From contig CAJXZZ010000007.1 of NCBI GenBank assembly GCA_913065105.1, positions 1 to 55,985 on the forward strand: 55,985 nt of DNA, in the 5' to 3' direction. Positions 29,364 to 53,731 of the stretch are shown here, piece after piece (the stretch's first letter is position 1; each line of letters begins with the position of its first letter). The notes beneath the pieces are model-generated. The model was not told the DNA's origin, searched no databases, and saw only the letters and a list, made by a program, of their open reading frames with translations. The position numbers and the translations under genes were made by a program. The stretch is from an uncultured Gammaproteobacteria bacterium (GTDB lineage: Bacteria; Pseudomonadota; Gammaproteobacteria; SZUA-229).

Positions 29364-30953
29364 ATGGCATATCTAGAAGAAGTAAAACGTCGGCGAACAT
29401 TCGCCATCATCTCTCACCCGGACGCGGGTAAAACCACGCTGACAGAAAAACTGCTGCTCTTCAGTGGTGCTATTCAGATGGCCGGCACCGTTAAGGGCAG
29501 GAAAGCCGCACGCCATGCAACATCAGACTGGATGGAGCTGGAAAAACAGCGTGGTATCTCGGTAACGTCATCGGTTATGCAGTTCCCGCATAAAGGTTGC
29601 ATCATCAATCTACTCGATACCCCGGGGCATGCCGATTTCTCCGAGGATACCTACCGCACATTAACCGCAGTTGATTCTGCGTTGATGGTGATCGATGCGG
29701 CCAAAGGGGTAGAGGAACGCACCATCAAATTGATGGATGTGTGTCGTCTGCGCACCACACCCATTATTACCTTTGTTAATAAGATGGACCGCGAAGCGCG
29801 CGAGCCAATCGATATCCTCGATGAGATCGAAGATATCCTGAATATCAAATGCGCACCGATTACCTGGCCGATCGGCATGGGTAAAAACTTTAAGGGCGTG
29901 TTTAACCTGGCGACGAACACCGTGCATTTTTTCAGTGCCACTCACGGTGGCAAGATACAGCAGGGTGATGTCATCGAAGGTCTGGATAATCCACAGCTTG
30001 ATGAGGTCTTAGGTTACATGGCCGCCGAACTGCGCGAAGAGATCGAACTGGTGAAAGGTGCCAGTCACGAGTTCGAGTTAGAGGCTTATCAGAAAGGTGA
30101 ACTGACACCAGTATTTTTTGGCTCGGGTATCAACAACTTTGGTATCGCAGAATTGCTCGATGCACTCAATGATTTTGCGCCATCTCCCAGGGCACGTGAG
30201 ACACAGACCCGCATAGTAGAACCGGAAGAAGATAAATTCACCGGCTTCGTCTTTAAAATACAGGCGAACATGGATCCCGGGCATCGCGACCGTATCGCTT
30301 TTGTACGCATATGTTCAGGTATGTATAAAAAAGGCATGAAAGTAAAACACGTGCGTTTGGGTAAAGATATAAAACTTGCCGATGCGGTCACCTTCATGGC
30401 GGCAGATCGCGAACAGGTCGAAGAAGCTTATACCGGTGATATCATCGGTTTGCATAATCACGGCACCATGCGTATCGGTGATACCTTTACCATGGGTGAA
30501 GATCTGGCGTTTACCGGTATCCCTAACTTTGCACCGGAACTATTTCGCCGCGCCCAGTTAAAAGATCCGTTAAAGATGAAAGCGCTGCAAAAAGGTCTCA
30601 TGCAATTATGTGAAGAGGGCGCTACCCAGCTGTATCGTCCACTACACAATAATGATTTAATCCTGGGTGCAGTCGGTGTGCTGCAGTTTGAAGTAGTCCA
30701 ACATCGTCTGATGGCTGAGTATAGCGTTGACTGCAATTTTGAAGCGGTAAATGTGACTACTGCACGCTGGATCGAATGTGACGATGAAAAAGAACTGACC
30801 AAATTCAAGAATCGTCAGACGACTAATCTGGCGTTAGATCATGCGGGTGATCTGGCGTATATCGCGCCGACACGGGTTAATCTTGATATGACGATTGAGA
30901 AGTGGCCGAAGATTAAGTTTCTTTCTACTCGTGAGCATGGGATTTATAACTAA
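29364..30953 (+). CDS. prfC: peptide chain release factor 3
   Basis: A 529-residue GTPase that recycles RF1/RF2 from terminated ribosomes. G1 is [11 protein letters not shown], switch II region [15 protein letters not shown]4 [10 protein letters not shown]. Domain II and the RF3-specific domain III ([20 protein letters not shown]) follow. The length matches E. coli RF3 (529). It is a separate transcription unit with a 110-bp upstream gap. No terminator hairpin is evident after the stop; the gene-free 30954-32732 region begins there. Confidence 0.98.
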
Positions 30954-30960
30954 AAAAGTT

Positions 30961-31028
30961 ATTCACCGCAGAGACGCTGAGTCGCAGAGAAAAACTTTTT
31001 TGTTACCACGCTCCTTGTGGAAATACAT
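30961..31028 (+). repeat. short intergenic repeats after prfC
   Basis: CACCGCAGAGACGCTGAG followed by TCGCAGAG (about 30964-30989) is an irregular CAGAG-type repeat. CCACGCTCCTTGTGG with AAATACAT (31006-31028) is a diverged copy of the palindrome at 4682-4705. Confidence 0.5.
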
Positions 31029-31117
31029 AATGAAGGACTGATCTTTTTTTGTTTTTTAAAATAGATCTATCCCTTAGCTTTAAAGTTCTCAACATTTACA
31101 CCTTACTATTATTAGAC

Positions 31118-31338
31118 ATTGCGAGTCTCGCCTCGCGGGCGACTCACTCTTTTGCTACAGCCCAAAAGAGTAAGCAGAAAAGGCCGCCCCAACTCGTTTG
31201 CCCTTCGGGTTCCTGAAACCTCAGTCACTGCCAACGAGCCCGCCTTGACGCGCTGTCCTGCGCGCAAGGCTAAATTCGCCGTCCATGGCGAATTTACTCT
31301 ACCAGTGCCTGAGCTTTCAGCAAACGAAAAGGGGAAGG
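31118..31338 (+). repeat. long intergenic repeat, copy A
   Basis: About 220 bp. It begins with a GTCTCGCC/GGGCGAC inverted repeat, then ACTCTTTTG and CAAAAGAGT (nine-base-pair palindrome), a conserved GGCCGCCC, and the hairpin AAATTCGCC (31271-31279)-GTCCAT-GGCGAATTT (31286-31294). An inverted, diverged copy B is at 32210-32439, and partial copies are at 32567, 52903, 52998 and 53500. A frame running through 31119-31469 is produced by the repeat and is not a gene. Confidence 0.85.
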
Positions 31339-31576
31339 TAAAACAAGCGTTGCAAGGATGGTTATTTCTCTGTAAAACTTCTGGTTATGTTTTGGCATAT
31401 TTGTATATTGGTGATAAGCCGACGTCTATCTATCACAATATTCCTGCCATCCACCTAATACACTGTTAGGGCATTAGTAGGTGTTTGCATTTATTTAGGG
31501 CGAGCGAAAGTATCAATGGACAGTGGAGTTTTAATTTATGCCGCTAAGAGATTAGCGATTACGATTTGATGCATTT

Positions 31577-31763
31577 GGCGAGGATAATAAACATTACTAT
31601 GATGTAATCAGATACACCAACGTTTATTACTATCTCGCCTATTTCAAATATAGGCATTTATTTTCACCATAAAAAAAGCCTGCTGAAGGCAGGCTTGGGG
31701 TTGAATACCGCTTATGCGGGTATTAATTTCAGGCACAAAAAAGCCCGCATAAACGGGCTTTTT
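31577..31763 (+). ncRNA. candidate structured non-coding RNA ending in a terminator
   Basis: GGCGAG (31577-31582) pairs with CTCGCC (31634-31639). Inside, TAATAAAC (31585-31592) pairs with GTTTATTA (31622-31629), and ATTAC (31593-31597) with GTAAT (31604-31608). The base GCC also fits an alternative helix GCCTAT (31637-31642) with ATAGGC (31650-31655). Then come AAGCCTGC/GCAGGCTT (31676-31696), AATACCGC/GCGGGTATT (31704-31724, one bulge) and a Rho-independent terminator. No + strand gene ends just upstream, so the terminator implies a separate transcript. A non-coding RNA is inferred; a chance or mobile inverted repeat is possible. I do not recognise the family. Confidence 0.45.
31737..31763 (+). 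terminator. Rho-independent terminator of an orphan transcript
   Basis: AAAAAGCCCG (31738-31747), loop CATAAA, CGGGCTTTTT (31754-31763): perfect ten-base-pair stem with T run. Confidence 0.88.
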
Positions 31764-31980
31764 ATACTCTAGACGCAACAACGCGTGAGGAGGAGAATAA
31801 CGCTAAATAATAATTTACACAAGCAGGTTATGTTTCACATATCAATCAATAACTTACAATGTTTTTGGGTTGCAGGTATAGGTAGATATGTATAGTGATC
31901 ATGTACAGGTCTATTTCAGTAGTAAATATTGCCTTTTTTTAACCGCAATAATCTGTTCTAACAACTCAATCAAGCGCGGT

Positions 31981-32162
31981 ACGTCCGATTAGCGTAGCGT
32001 AATCGGACGTATGTGTATTCTTACGCATTAAAATCTTTTCGCTAGAATAAATAAGAGACAAAATTAAAGGGATTGGTGACAAACTGTAATCATTATTTGT
32101 CACTACTAAATCGAGATAAGGGGATTGCTTAGCATTCGTCCGATTACGCTACGCTAATCGGA
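31981..32162. repeat. pair of inverted REP-like palindromes
   Basis: ACGTCCGATTA (31981-31991)-GCGTAGCG-TAATCGGACGT (32000-32010) is an 11-base-pair palindrome. TCCGATTA (32139-32146)-CGCTACGC-TAATCGGA (32155-32162) is the same unit in the other orientation. About 130 bp of AT-rich sequence lies between them with no coding frame. The layout resembles paired REP elements, but no transposase is near. Confidence 0.75.
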
Positions 32163-32209
32163 TCTACACACTGAAAACTATGTTGTTTTTTAGTTGTTGT
32201 TTTTAACTC

Positions 32210-32439
32210 CCTCTTTCATTTGCTGAATTCTTTGGTGTTGGTAGAACAAATTTGCCAGGGAAGGCGAATTTAGCCTTGCGCGCAGGGATAGCGCGTCAAG
32301 GCGGGTTCGTAGGCAACATCAAATAATTCAGGCACCCCGAGTGTTCTTCTCGGGGCAAATAGATAAGGGCGGCCTTTTCTGCTTACTCTTTTGGGCTGTA
32401 GCAAAAGAGTGAGTCGCCCGCGAGGCGAGACTCGCAATC
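32210..32439 (-). repeat. long intergenic repeat, copy B (inverted relative to copy A)
   Basis: Shares with copy A the GGCGGCCTTTT box, the ACTCTTTTG/CAAAAGAGT palindrome and the GTCGCC/GGCGAGAC end, read on the opposite strand. Its hairpin at the corresponding place is AAATTTGCC (32248-32256)-AGGGAA-GGCGAATTT (32263-32271). Confidence 0.85.
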
Positions 32440-32486
32440 TATAAGAATAAATACAACCTTAGATAGTTAGTAATGGCGGCATGTTA

Positions 32487-32558
32487 CAAAACACGTCCTG
32501 TGTTTTGCCCTGCGGGCCAGCTATAAAACAGATGTTCAATTTTGCTCCTGGCAAAATT
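32487..32558. repeat. two perfect hairpins with a shared loop type
   Basis: CAAAACAC (32487-32494)-GTCCT-GTGTTTTG (32500-32507) and AATTTTGC (32538-32545)-TCCTG-GCAAAATT (32551-32558). The arms are unrelated in sequence, but both loops contain TCCT, as do hairpins in the copy A repeat. Confidence 0.65.
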
Positions 32559-32566
32559 AGTCTGGT

Positions 32567-32621
32567 TACTCTTTTGGGCTGTAGCAAAAGAGTGACTCGC
32601 CAGCGGGGCGAGACCCGCAAT
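32567..32621 (-). repeat. long intergenic repeat, partial copy C
   Basis: Contains only the ACTCTTTTG-GGCTGTAG-CAAAAGAGT palindrome and the CTCGCCAGCGGGGCGAG end seen in copies B, D and E. Confidence 0.8.
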
Positions 32622-32732
32622 GCATTTATGGAGACAGAGGAATTATTTTTTAACCAAATGCCATAATTGATTAATATTTAATCCCCGAGTACTCTTTGAT
32701 TCTATTATTTACATAAATCAAGGGAGAGTGTC

Positions 32733-33734
32733 ATGAATCAAAGAACGCATACCTGGCTTGCAATACGAGCTATTGCTTTATTGGAGGATTCTAATGGCCC
32801 GAAGGGTCTCATTAAAATCCTGAAAGATAATGTGAAAGGCGCCGCTATTGGGAGCTGGATACCTGATTTACAAGATTCAAAAAAAGGCAGTGGTGATATA
32901 GATAACCATGTTTTTAAGATGAAGCCTTATGAAGGAAGTAATAAGTTTAGGTTCATTAAAAAAAGAAAGGCTTTATTTGATGAATTAGGTCAGGAGCGTA
33001 AGGTGTGTGAATTTCTGGATGATTGGGATTCTGTATTGGGTGCCGCATGGTGGAATAAAGCTTATAAGGCTTATCCAAATCCAGGGCAGCATCTTGCGAA
33101 TCGCTCAATGGCTTTAACAACAACTTTAATCGATCAGTTAATTCTTGGTGATAAAAAAGTTGCTGCTCTCGTACCTGGCACGGTCAGGTTTTCGGGCAAT
33201 CTTGATGATAATGCTCGATCACGCGCGGAGGAAGTTGCTACCTATTGTTTTATGCTTAGCCATTTTGTCGCGGACTCTAATCAACCTTGTCACTGTGATG
33301 CACGACTATTGTCAGGTTATAGCAATGGTCTACATAAAGAGATGGAAGCCGACTGGTCCAGGACTGTCGGTACGTACTTTGATAAGAGAAAGTATCTGAA
33401 AAATAATGAAACCCCAAATAAGATATTAGATGAAGCGCGAGCGATTGATGCTAAGTTCGATATCCAGTTTTCTAATCACGTACCAGACCTGCAGGCTAAA
33501 GATCCCTGGTTGGAGATTGTTAATATTTGCAGGGCATCTTTTGCCGTAGCCTCAGTTTTAGTGCCACCTGGTTCTATCTCGTATAAATCAAAAAAGAAAA
33601 CAAGTTTTGAAAAAATATTTGAAAGTGCTGATAGTGATCCTGAATTGTTGATAGACCTTAATCGCATGGTGATGCATGATGCCGTTTTAAATATTGCTAT
33701 CCTCTGGAAGAATCTCTGGAGTAAATTTTCTTAG
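32733..33734 (+). CDS. zinc-dependent phospholipase C / S1-P1 nuclease superfamily protein
   Basis: A 333-residue protein without signal peptide or lipobox. Its candidate metal ligands have the spacing of Bacillus cereus phospholipase C: Asp45, His59, His177, Asp181, His187, His201 and Glu205, against Asp55, His69, His118, Asp122, His128, His142 and Glu146. The two blocks SHFVADSNQPCHCD and HKEMEADW are the clearest. An insert of about 70 residues lies between His59 and His177. His6 (RTHTW) may stand for the N-terminal His. The family cleaves phosphodiesters with three zinc ions. Lack of an export signal is odd, since relatives are secreted and use the mature N-terminus as a ligand. The gene stands alone beside a repeat nest; substrate unknown. 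Confidence 0.7.
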   Translation: MNQRTHTWLAIRAIALLEDSNGPKGLIKILKDNVKGAAIGSWIPDLQDSKKGSGDIDNHVFKMKPYEGSNKFRFIKKRKALFDELGQERKVCEFLDDWDSVLGAAWWNKAYKAYPNPGQHLANRSMALTTTLIDQLILGDKKVAALVPGTVRFSGNLDDNARSRAEEVATYCFMLSHFVADSNQPCHCDARLLSGYSNGLHKEMEADWSRTVGTYFDKRKYLKNNETPNKILDEARAIDAKFDIQFSNHVPDLQAKDPWLEIVNICRASFAVASVLVPPGSISYKSKKKTSFEKIFESADSDPELLIDLNRMVMHDAVLNIAILWKNLWSKFS

Positions 33735-34309: not shown

Positions 34310-35299
34310 TTAAAACTCAGCTGCCTCTACTTCACCATAAGCCTGCGCACCTTGCGGCCCAAGCAGCTCATCATAACCAAACCAGTCTTTATATGCAGCG
34401 GTTGTTTCTTGTGAAATAGTAATCACATCACTACTATCAAGGTCATCCTCAAAAGCTTTTTTCGCTGCCCCATACACCTGAACTAAATAGTTAAGATATG
34501 TTTCTACCATGGCCTTGTCACCGGTTGGTCCGTGCCCCGGCACATAGGTTTTTATATCGCTTTCAAGTATCGTGTTGATGGTTGCTATGTTGCCCTGAAA
34601 CTGACCGTCTGATGTTCTGGGTATGCGTAGTGATAAAACATTGTCACCAAGAAATATCACCGAGCTTTCGACTACCTCGATCATGATATCGCTTGTAGTA
34701 TGGGCTATGCCGTAGTGGTGTATTTTAAATTCTGTGTCGCCGACTTTGATCACATCCGAATTATCAGTCGTAAGATTGGGTGCGACCACTTCTGTGCCCA
34801 GGCTGGCACCTTCGGTGAGGGTGTTCATGGTGTTGACCCAGTTTTCACCTTCGCCATTCTCTATCTCGACCAGCATCTCTGGGTGGCCATAAATTTTTAC
34901 GTCGGGATAGGCCGCTTTGATTGCCTGATTAGCTAACCAGTGATCACCGTGGATGTGGGTGTTAAATACTGCAACGACAGGTGTGTCGCTTATCTTTTTA
35001 ACTTCTTTAAGTACGTGTTCTCCAACCTGCACGGTGGAGCCAGGGTCAATGATAACCAGGCCAGATGAGGTTTTTACGACACCTGGATTATTCATGAAAC
35101 CTTTGTTTTGCGGAGTCGGTAATTCACGCGGCCCGTGCATTACCCAGGTATTGCTGGTTACCTGTTCAAATGTATAAGGAAAGTCAGCACTAGCGGTGGC
35201 TTCAGTTTTCTTGTTAGCACTCTGCTCGCTGGGCGGTGAACATGCGCTTAGCAAAACGACAAATAATAGTGAGCTTAGGGATTTGATCAGAATATTCAT
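34310..35299 (-). CDS. MBL-fold metallo-hydrolase lipoprotein
   Basis: A 329-residue lipoprotein (LFVVLLSAC, acylated Cys20). The metallo-beta-lactamase HxHxDH motif is NTHIHGDHW at about residues 111-119; further ligands are the His in IHHYGIAHT, the Asp in VIFLGDNVLS and the His in VPGHGPTGD. It resembles envelope MBL proteins annotated as SoxH-like or quinoprotein-relay hydrolases; the substrate is unknown, and true beta-lactamase activity should not be assumed. It is 22 bp from the DUF1304 gene on the same strand, so they may be co-transcribed. Confidence 0.85.
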   Translation of the reverse strand: MNILIKSLSSLLFVVLLSACSPPSEQSANKKTEATASADFPYTFEQVTSNTWVMHGPRELPTPQNKGFMNNPGVVKTSSGLVIIDPGSTVQVGEHVLKEVKKISDTPVVAVFNTHIHGDHWLANQAIKAAYPDVKIYGHPEMLVEIENGEGENWVNTMNTLTEGASLGTEVVAPNLTTDNSDVIKVGDTEFKIHHYGIAHTTSDIMIEVVESSVIFLGDNVLSLRIPRTSDGQFQGNIATINTILESDIKTYVPGHGPTGDKAMVETYLNYLVQVYGAAKKAFEDDLDSSDVITISQETTAAYKDWFGYDELLGPQGAQAYGEVEAAEF

Positions 35300-52902: not shown

Positions 52903-52931
52903 GCATTGTGGGTCTCGCCCCGCTGGCGAGT
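52903..52931 (+). repeat. long intergenic repeat, short fragment D1
   Basis: GTCTCGCCCCGCTGGCGAG with flanks matches, on the opposite strand, the end of partial copies C and E. Confidence 0.75.
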
Positions 52932-52997
52932 TACGGTTATTCTGGTTTTATCAGGTCCCCTTGTCTACATGACCGACTATTTTGAATTTGTCTCGTG

Positions 52998-53225
52998 AGT
53001 TTCGCCTTTTACGGCGAGTCACTTTTCTTTCTGTAGCAAAAGAAAAGTAACCAAAAGAATGCTATCCCGCTCCGTTTGCCCCGAGAAAAGCGCTCGGGGT
53101 GCCTGACTGCCCAGGTGTTGCCTACGAGCCCGCCTTGACGCGCTGTCCGTGCGCGCAAGGCTAACAGGCCACGCTTGATAATTTTTACTCTACCAACACC
53201 TGAGCATTCAGCAAACGAAAGGGGA
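52998..53225 (+). repeat. long intergenic repeat, diverged copy D2
   Basis: Same order as copy A: CGCC/GGCG inverted repeat, ACTTTTCTTT with CAAAAGAAAAGT palindrome, GAGCCCGCCTTGACGCGCTG, GCGCGCAAGGCTAA, and a final CAGCAAACGAAAGGGGAA. It also contains a CCCCGAG/CTCGGGG hairpin (around 53080-53100) not seen in copy A but seen in copy B. No gene is supported in it. Confidence 0.8.
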
Positions 53226-53499
53226 ATCCAAAAACTAACAAACACAAACAAGAGTCGTCGCTGAAGTACACATTATAAATTAACGCTGTTTTATTCTTTA
53301 TCTCGTCCTTCCACTTTTAAGCAAGCCATTGAGGCGGTGCGGGTGTCATGGGTTTTCTGTGAAAACTGTCTGAGCGTCTTCTGCGAGTTGACGTGCATGG
53401 ACGCACTAATGTCGTGGGCGCAGGAAGCGCAAGAGCGACGCTTTCACAGCATGATAGCTGTGCTGACTCAGTGGGAACCCCTGTGTCTTTTACAGGGGC

Positions 53500-53585
53500 G
53501 TAGCTGTAGTGGCGGCCTTTTCTGGCTACTCTTTTGGGCTGCAGCAAAAGAGTGGCTCGCCAGCGGGGCGAGACCCGCAAAGCCC
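53500..53585 (-). repeat. long intergenic repeat, partial copy E
   Basis: GGCGGCCTTTTCTGGCTACT, the ACTCTTTTG/CAAAAGAGT palindrome and CTCGCCAGCGGGGCGAG are shared with copies B and C. It is inverted relative to D2. The 53226-53499 stretch between them holds no recognisable gene; 53586-53731 is the parE upstream region with no clear promoter. Confidence 0.8.
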
Positions 53586-53731
53586 AATCAAAAGCAACCA
53601 AGTAAATGCCAGAAATATAAATGCGCAAATACAAAGCCCCACTAGCATTGCTGGCAAAATATTCAGGTGGTAAAGTGTCCTCATTAATTTTAATCCAACC
53701 CATACAATTCTAATAACAGGGTATAACGCAA

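Follow-up and report, generated by a model that had tools for sequence, protein, structure and literature searches.

A putative integron cassette without an open reading frame, behind an attI-like site between inverted repeat blocks downstream of prfC

What does a series of hairpins closed by a strong terminator represent when no gene adjoins it? Positions 31577-31763 of the window, that is, of the whole 55,985-nt stretch of DNA analysed here, raise this question, since no plus-strand gene adjoins them, as the first-pass annotation had remarked: prfC ends at 30953, and the next accepted plus-strand gene starts only at 32733. That annotation had proposed an orphan regulatory RNA, with a miniature inverted-repeat element as the alternative. 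We consider it fairly probable that 31577-31763 is instead the inner part of an ORF-less, terminator-bearing cassette lying behind attI in a repeat-bounded element with no adjacent integrase, an element which, as we read it, has inserted itself behind prfC, with a metallo-hydrolase gene on its other side. This explanation draws on attI homology, on the differing ORFs behind other attI copies, on the inverted blocks and on the missing integrase, all taken from the sequence, and on half an attC recognized by eye at the far end of the cassette. Our confidence is slightly reduced because the attI matches of the window copy are weak and several cores depart from GTTRRRY. The features are collected in Table 1; below, G denotes a genome (G000 being that of the window), C a contig, and L a locus.

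Table 1. Coordinates of the features at and around the putative cassette
Feature	Position	Strand	Remark
prfC (peptide chain release factor 3), left neighbour	29364-30953	+	ORF
Left repeat block	31084-31346		inverted-repeat arm 31107-31203; TwoAYGGAY match on minus strand, 31194-31340
attI-like site	31347-31469	+	core ACCTAAT 31453-31459 and GTTAG 31465-31469
Putative ORF-less integron cassette	31466-31979	+	no ORF of at least 60 aa
Imperfect hairpin	31577-31639	+	three stacked helices (7, 8, and 5 pairs)
Helix 1	31577-31583 with 31633-31639	+	6 Watson-Crick pairs and one G-U
Helix 2	31585-31592 with 31622-31629	+	8 pairs
Helix 3	31593-31597 with 31604-31608	+	5 pairs
Competing hairpin	31637-31655	+	6 pairs, weak T-run after; reuses GCC 31637-31639
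Predicted intrinsic terminator	31676-31696	-	T-run on minus strand only; terminator scan
Hairpin between the two terminators	31704-31724		strand unassigned
Predicted terminator hairpin	31738-31763		10 pairs, T-run on both strands; similar stretches in relatives
Putative attC 5' half, cut off by palindrome	31956-31979	+	by eye
REP-like palindrome	31979-32013		second copy 32133-32167
Right repeat block, inverted relative to left	32138-32478		TwoAYGGAY match on plus strand, 32216-32338
Additional partial repeat block	32561-32623
Metallo-beta-lactamase-fold protein gene	34310-35299	-

An attI-like segment and the cassette behind it

The last ~125 nt up to 31469 are present at eight sites, spread over five of the 54 family genomes. 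Blastn similarity stops at the GTTA(G) core in five of the seven other copies (C10, C64, C44, G047, and G008); in the G001 copy it stops earlier, yet the same core follows, and the G004 copy has a degenerate end. In six of these seven copies, an ORF of 95 to 341 aa begins between 1 nt before the core and 46 nt behind it, and a 78-aa ORF stands at 90 nt from it in G004; no ORF of at least 60 aa was found within 260 nt of the core in the window copy. In G008, G017, G023, G039, and G030, the motif also stands upstream of N-extended IntI frames (462 to 496 aa, stop to stop), in divergent orientation to them; in G023 it reads CCTAATACACTGTTATG. An inverted pair of cores is taken to mark attI, and we take these sites beside intI to be attI from their position. 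Across 35 loci, the best matches between the copies and the integrase side (E 1.5e-9 and 6e-7) come from the G001 and G008 copies, and the window copy matches integrase-side attI weakly, at E 0.001 over 21 nt in G023 and 0.048 in G030. GTTAG ends the attI-homologous segment, the window 7-mer GTTAGGG departing from GTTRRRY in its last base, and cores off this consensus also occur in C10 and C64 (GTTAGCA) and in G047 (ATTAG). Scanning the species collection with a core-region query composed from six copies returned two contigs only, which we take as those of G008 and G047. The consensus fold of the eight attI copies is empty, a result that counts against the cassette explanation and for which a conserved structure in the attI segment was rejected.

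From this core onward, 31466-31979 reads as an ORF-less first-position cassette ending in half an attC. Its far end carries TTCTAAC and AACTCAATCAAG, which by eye resemble the attC-like halves near the C59 integrase; the attC-half motif was found once against 0.06 expected, for a motif composed after the sequence had been viewed. The half is interrupted by the REP-like palindrome, and C10 looks alike, with GCCCAACAAAAAGCACGG cut at a similar place; neither the window half nor that of C10 was confirmed by the attC scanners. No complete attC was found at the 3' end of the cassette, and none in the scanned window stretches, by scanners that also miss sites plain elsewhere: an early, loose one made many calls and was of no use, its successor came up empty even in L178, a locus of a relative, and the last found one site in L178 (others there being read by eye) and a doubtful one in L124, missed those beside the C59 integrase, and gave 2 background calls in 31 kb. 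An integron integrase would have placed the cassette at attI, and its mobility would have been lost once the attC was cut and the cognate integrase had decayed.

Integrases of TIGR02249 score over the cut-off in 29 of the 54 family genomes. A complete integron was not found at the window locus, no intI being adjacent to the attI-like site. The two intI genes of the genome that score over the cut-off lie elsewhere (C59:1599-2540 and C10:454-1398, the latter ~12 kb from the C10 element); their open frames measure 343 and 335 aa, which makes both the shorter type. On C59 (L176, 1-1600), the DNA adjoining the shorter-type integrase shows attC-like sites by eye. C44 may be the old chromosomal integron, because ORFs of 299 and 109 aa stand behind its attI, and decayed remnants of an N-extended-type integrase (31 and 37 residues, at 55% and 35% identity, E 7.7e-6) stand before it.

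Could the cassette be what remains of one or two small genes, frame-shifted or shrunken, with their terminators left over? We regard this as unlikely. Plus-strand frames from 31516 (17 codons) and at 31556-31669 (38 codons) do end just before terminators, but their per-codon score is about -0.05, compared with 0.338 for prfC. The best open frame lies on the minus strand (31647-31802, 52 codons); its score of 7.18, reached by 11 of 500 shuffles, amounts to ~0.14 per codon, much as in the gene accepted at 32733 (0.124), and we discount it solely because it runs through both terminators. Moreover, the three short peptides searched have no Pfam match at E<=10, the 38-aa frame matches no plasmid and reaches only E 6 with two records of one archaeal virus, and for the joined 52-aa peptide none of 223 pattern matches in the species collection was confirmed.

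Folding, terminators and the RNA reading

The structures that the first-pass annotation had described are there: its three stacked helices lie where it had placed them, with helix 1 gaining a G-U pair, and its competing helix, its two further hairpins (31676-31696 and 31704-31724), and its terminator are all present. When 31560-31672 is folded as an ensemble, base helix and competing helix form at ~0.83 and ~0.17, respectively. The annotation had overlooked the minus-strand T-run of 31676-31696 and the two-strand T-run of 31738-31763, which we read from the sequence, the consensus terminator scan not having listed this hairpin. A plus-strand transcript ending near 31763 is plausible because of the terminator there. 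This hairpin would halt read-through from the attI side and, together with 31676-31696, would halt minus-strand transcription. In the likeliest account, the 31466-31979 unit is a probably decaying cassette, and two-way transcription termination would be its clearest activity.

As a whole, the stretch folds with marked stability, at z -4.72 for 31500-31770 and z -4.62 for 31470-31764, none of 200 shuffles being as stable in either case. On the strand of the original reading, this excess lies mainly in the terminators, because the plus strand of 31473-31670, which leaves them out, is near its shuffles (z -1.42; 20 of 200 as good). The minus strand of this segment exceeds it (z -3.07; 0 of 200), an excess for which the cassette explanation does not account. 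The hand-picked region 31560-31660 gives z -2.78 (1 of 200) as RNA and z -2.43 (2 of 200) as DNA.

The proposal of an orphan regulatory RNA finds no support in these folds or in the searches. No Rfam family reaches its gathering score for 31473-31770, which sets aside a known RNA family, and in three sets of genomes that each include the own one (145 relatives, 54 of the family, and 369 of the class) the searches met only terminator stretches and a few short matches that we take as chance, among them 27 nt in a long malic-enzyme-like gene of G007 (E 0.004), 18 nt in G048 (E 0.03), and 35 nt inside a long permease-like gene on C101 of the own genome (E 0.04). The searched genomes yield no relatives of the structure in which compensatory changes could be sought. 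A riboswitch or attenuator was rejected, the next accepted plus-strand gene lying almost 1 kb past the terminator; a type I toxin, which the minus-strand ORF 31559-31657 (32 aa, hydrophobic) might suggest, was set aside because a minus-strand terminator stands directly upstream. An attC was likewise rejected for the hairpin, its arms lacking core sites by eye and the attC scanner being empty there.

A functional small RNA encoded by the cassette, transcribed from the attI side or from a promoter of its own through the stacked hairpin to 31763, or else from the minus strand, seems to us more doubtful still than a gene remnant. Its terminator is strong and rightly placed, a promoter-like site (9/12) lies at 31575-31603, and the folds of 31560-31660 and of the minus strand given above speak for it, as does the precedent of sRNA-Xcc1 in an integron cassette (PMC6557892, PMC12444791). 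However, promoter-like sites are not in excess in 30900-32800 (2 against a shuffle mean of 4.3) and the one in question sits within the hairpin, the plus-strand fold of the cassette body is ordinary, relatives for covariation are lacking in the searched genomes, and a minus-strand RNA would have to begin left of the minus-strand terminator. Under the cassette explanation, the stacked hairpin is probably without an evolved function of its own.

That the hairpin itself is a MITE or a REP-type repeat is highly improbable: it has an inverted-repeat shape and repeats lie all round it, but it is single-copy in the assembly, its other matches being either short or the terminator. The mobile-element alternative thus fails for the hairpin and holds for its surroundings, which consist of multi-copy inverted repeats flanking an apparent integron cassette.

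Repeat blocks and insertion sites

A copy of prfC, at 87 to 100% identity, occurs in 17 of the 18 genomes of the genus, the own genome included, three copies being partial. Among 16 loci of other genomes, the metallo-hydrolase gene lies 33 to 364 nt behind prfC in six (L034, L035, L036, L040, L046, and L049) and follows after 0.8 to 1.3 kb of other DNA in three (L041, L044, and L048), the remaining seven being uninformative through a contig end or the lack of a match (L037-L039, L042, L043, L045, and L047). In the window this gap measures 3.36 kb. The intergenic stretch is accessory DNA, and the site that it occupies is variable. Parts of it recur widely: at E<=0.001 the genome gives 77 matches, a count that covers self-matches and small palindromes; blastn of 31100-32650 against 72,556 plasmid and 50,697 phage records was empty, and a phage or plasmid origin was rejected. 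Right behind prfC, at 30952-31001, lies a REP-like palindrome with similar copies elsewhere in the genome.

The blocks on either side of the cassette have terminal inverted repeats and occur in multiple copies, as MITEs do: 31107-31203 and 32353-32449 are inverted copies over 97 nt at 91%, with more inverted similarity inward. Their outer ends differ between copies, and reading fixed no target-site duplication. Both window blocks score over the gathering threshold for TwoAYGGAY, a family with 15 hits in the own genome (14 over the cut-off) and hits in 0 of 14 control genomes; the family may be partly a DNA repeat. C10 and C64 share the layout of the window element, with attI and cassette between inverted blocks and no adjacent integrase.

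The dsbD-tlpA site was compared across genomes. Of 12 tlpA loci in other genomes, the dsbD end is visible in five, and in four of these (L195, L198, L199, and L200) the two genes are direct neighbours, 67 to 180 nt apart; in the fifth, L196, they stand ~804 nt apart, and the DNA between them holds inverted blocks without an attI match. Block sequence also lies upstream of tlpA in L192 and L194, where dsbD is out of view, and other DNA or contig ends are found there in L193, L201, L202, and L203. In G001 (L197; L178 for the longer locus), dsbD, inverted blocks, an attI match, and tlpA follow one another, with cassettes between the blocks by reading and no integrase listed on the contig; G000 itself (C64) has blocks, attI, and cassette DNA at this site. 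The site is hence empty, block-only, or cassette-filled, a series that fits either a block pair that inserted first and later took up attI with cassettes, or a whole unit that inserted at once.

We entertain, as a tentative extension, that the inverted TwoAYGGAY-bearing blocks bound a mobile, non-autonomous element as its ends, an element carrying an integrase-less attI platform, which would be served by integrase in trans and would spread docking sites and cassettes chromosome-wide, the product of the window cassette being a terminator-ended RNA and not a protein. Should the element prove mobile, docking sites of integrons can move independently of the integrase, a possible reason for scattered cassettes without intI, and the Rfam "RNA" would, in this instance at least, be recast as a portion of a DNA repeat. 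The structured RNA of the original reading would itself be of modest interest, as a cassette with terminators and no gene.

Relation to known systems and other block-bounded cassettes

Gillings (2009) reportedly described class 1 integrons flanked by MITEs, to go by the title. The window element is like these in holding integron DNA between two copies of a short repeat element and unlike them in lacking an integrase, in its inverted TwoAYGGAY-type blocks, and in occupying at least three loci in one genome; for MITE-bounded class 1 integrons, mobilization has been proposed (PMC3934969). ORF-less cassettes are reported from Vibrio superintegrons and oral metagenomes (PMC11014356, PMC6557892), and the window holds a comparable cassette-sized unit without a recognizable ORF, in first position behind attI as in TMB4 (PMC6557892). 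Most of the tested Vibrio cassettes are reported to show promoter activity (PMC11014356), whereas that of the window is marked by predicted terminators on both strands. With sRNA-Xcc1, from a Xanthomonas integron cassette (PMC6557892, PMC12444791; Rfam RF02221, PMC11701678), it shares a non-coding candidate within a cassette, here a predicted one; unlike sRNA-Xcc1, the window sequence has neither an Rfam match nor relatives in the searched genomes.

CALIN, described as attC clusters without integrase (PMC9024848, PMC8618304), likewise consist of cassette DNA with no neighbouring integrase. They call for at least two complete attC sites and no intI, and no attC was found in the scanned window stretches; the window element, in contrast, retains an attI-like site and is bounded by repeat blocks. 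Sites of attI outside class 1 are reported to be poorly described and not detected (PMC9024848), and integrase-less docking sites would elude common software. Among the literature matches listed, as titles and opening lines of abstracts, none sets out a unit of attI and cassette that lacks an integrase and lies between inverted repeats, which does not establish its absence from print. TwoAYGGAY is known as an RNA (RF01731; PMC2864571, PMC11701678); the window blocks match it at gathering score, differing in that it is here part of a dispersed repeat.

Further block-bounded DNA was seen in the own genome and in a relative. On C10, a left and a right block surround a methyladenine glycosylase and a 95-aa ORF that matches no Pfam family. 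The blocks of C64 enclose a Tae4-type amidase, an unmatched ORF, and another ORF whose MreB-like match stays below the cut-off; in this cassette DNA (L109, 2526-3969), the small ORF beside the amidase effector is perhaps a candidate immunity protein. Repeat blocks of this kind form one more set at 52903-53588 of the window, with no TwoAYGGAY match at gathering score. In L178 (3850-4700, on C207 of G001), opposite-strand cassette genes resemble, by eye, a VapBC-type toxin-antitoxin pair.
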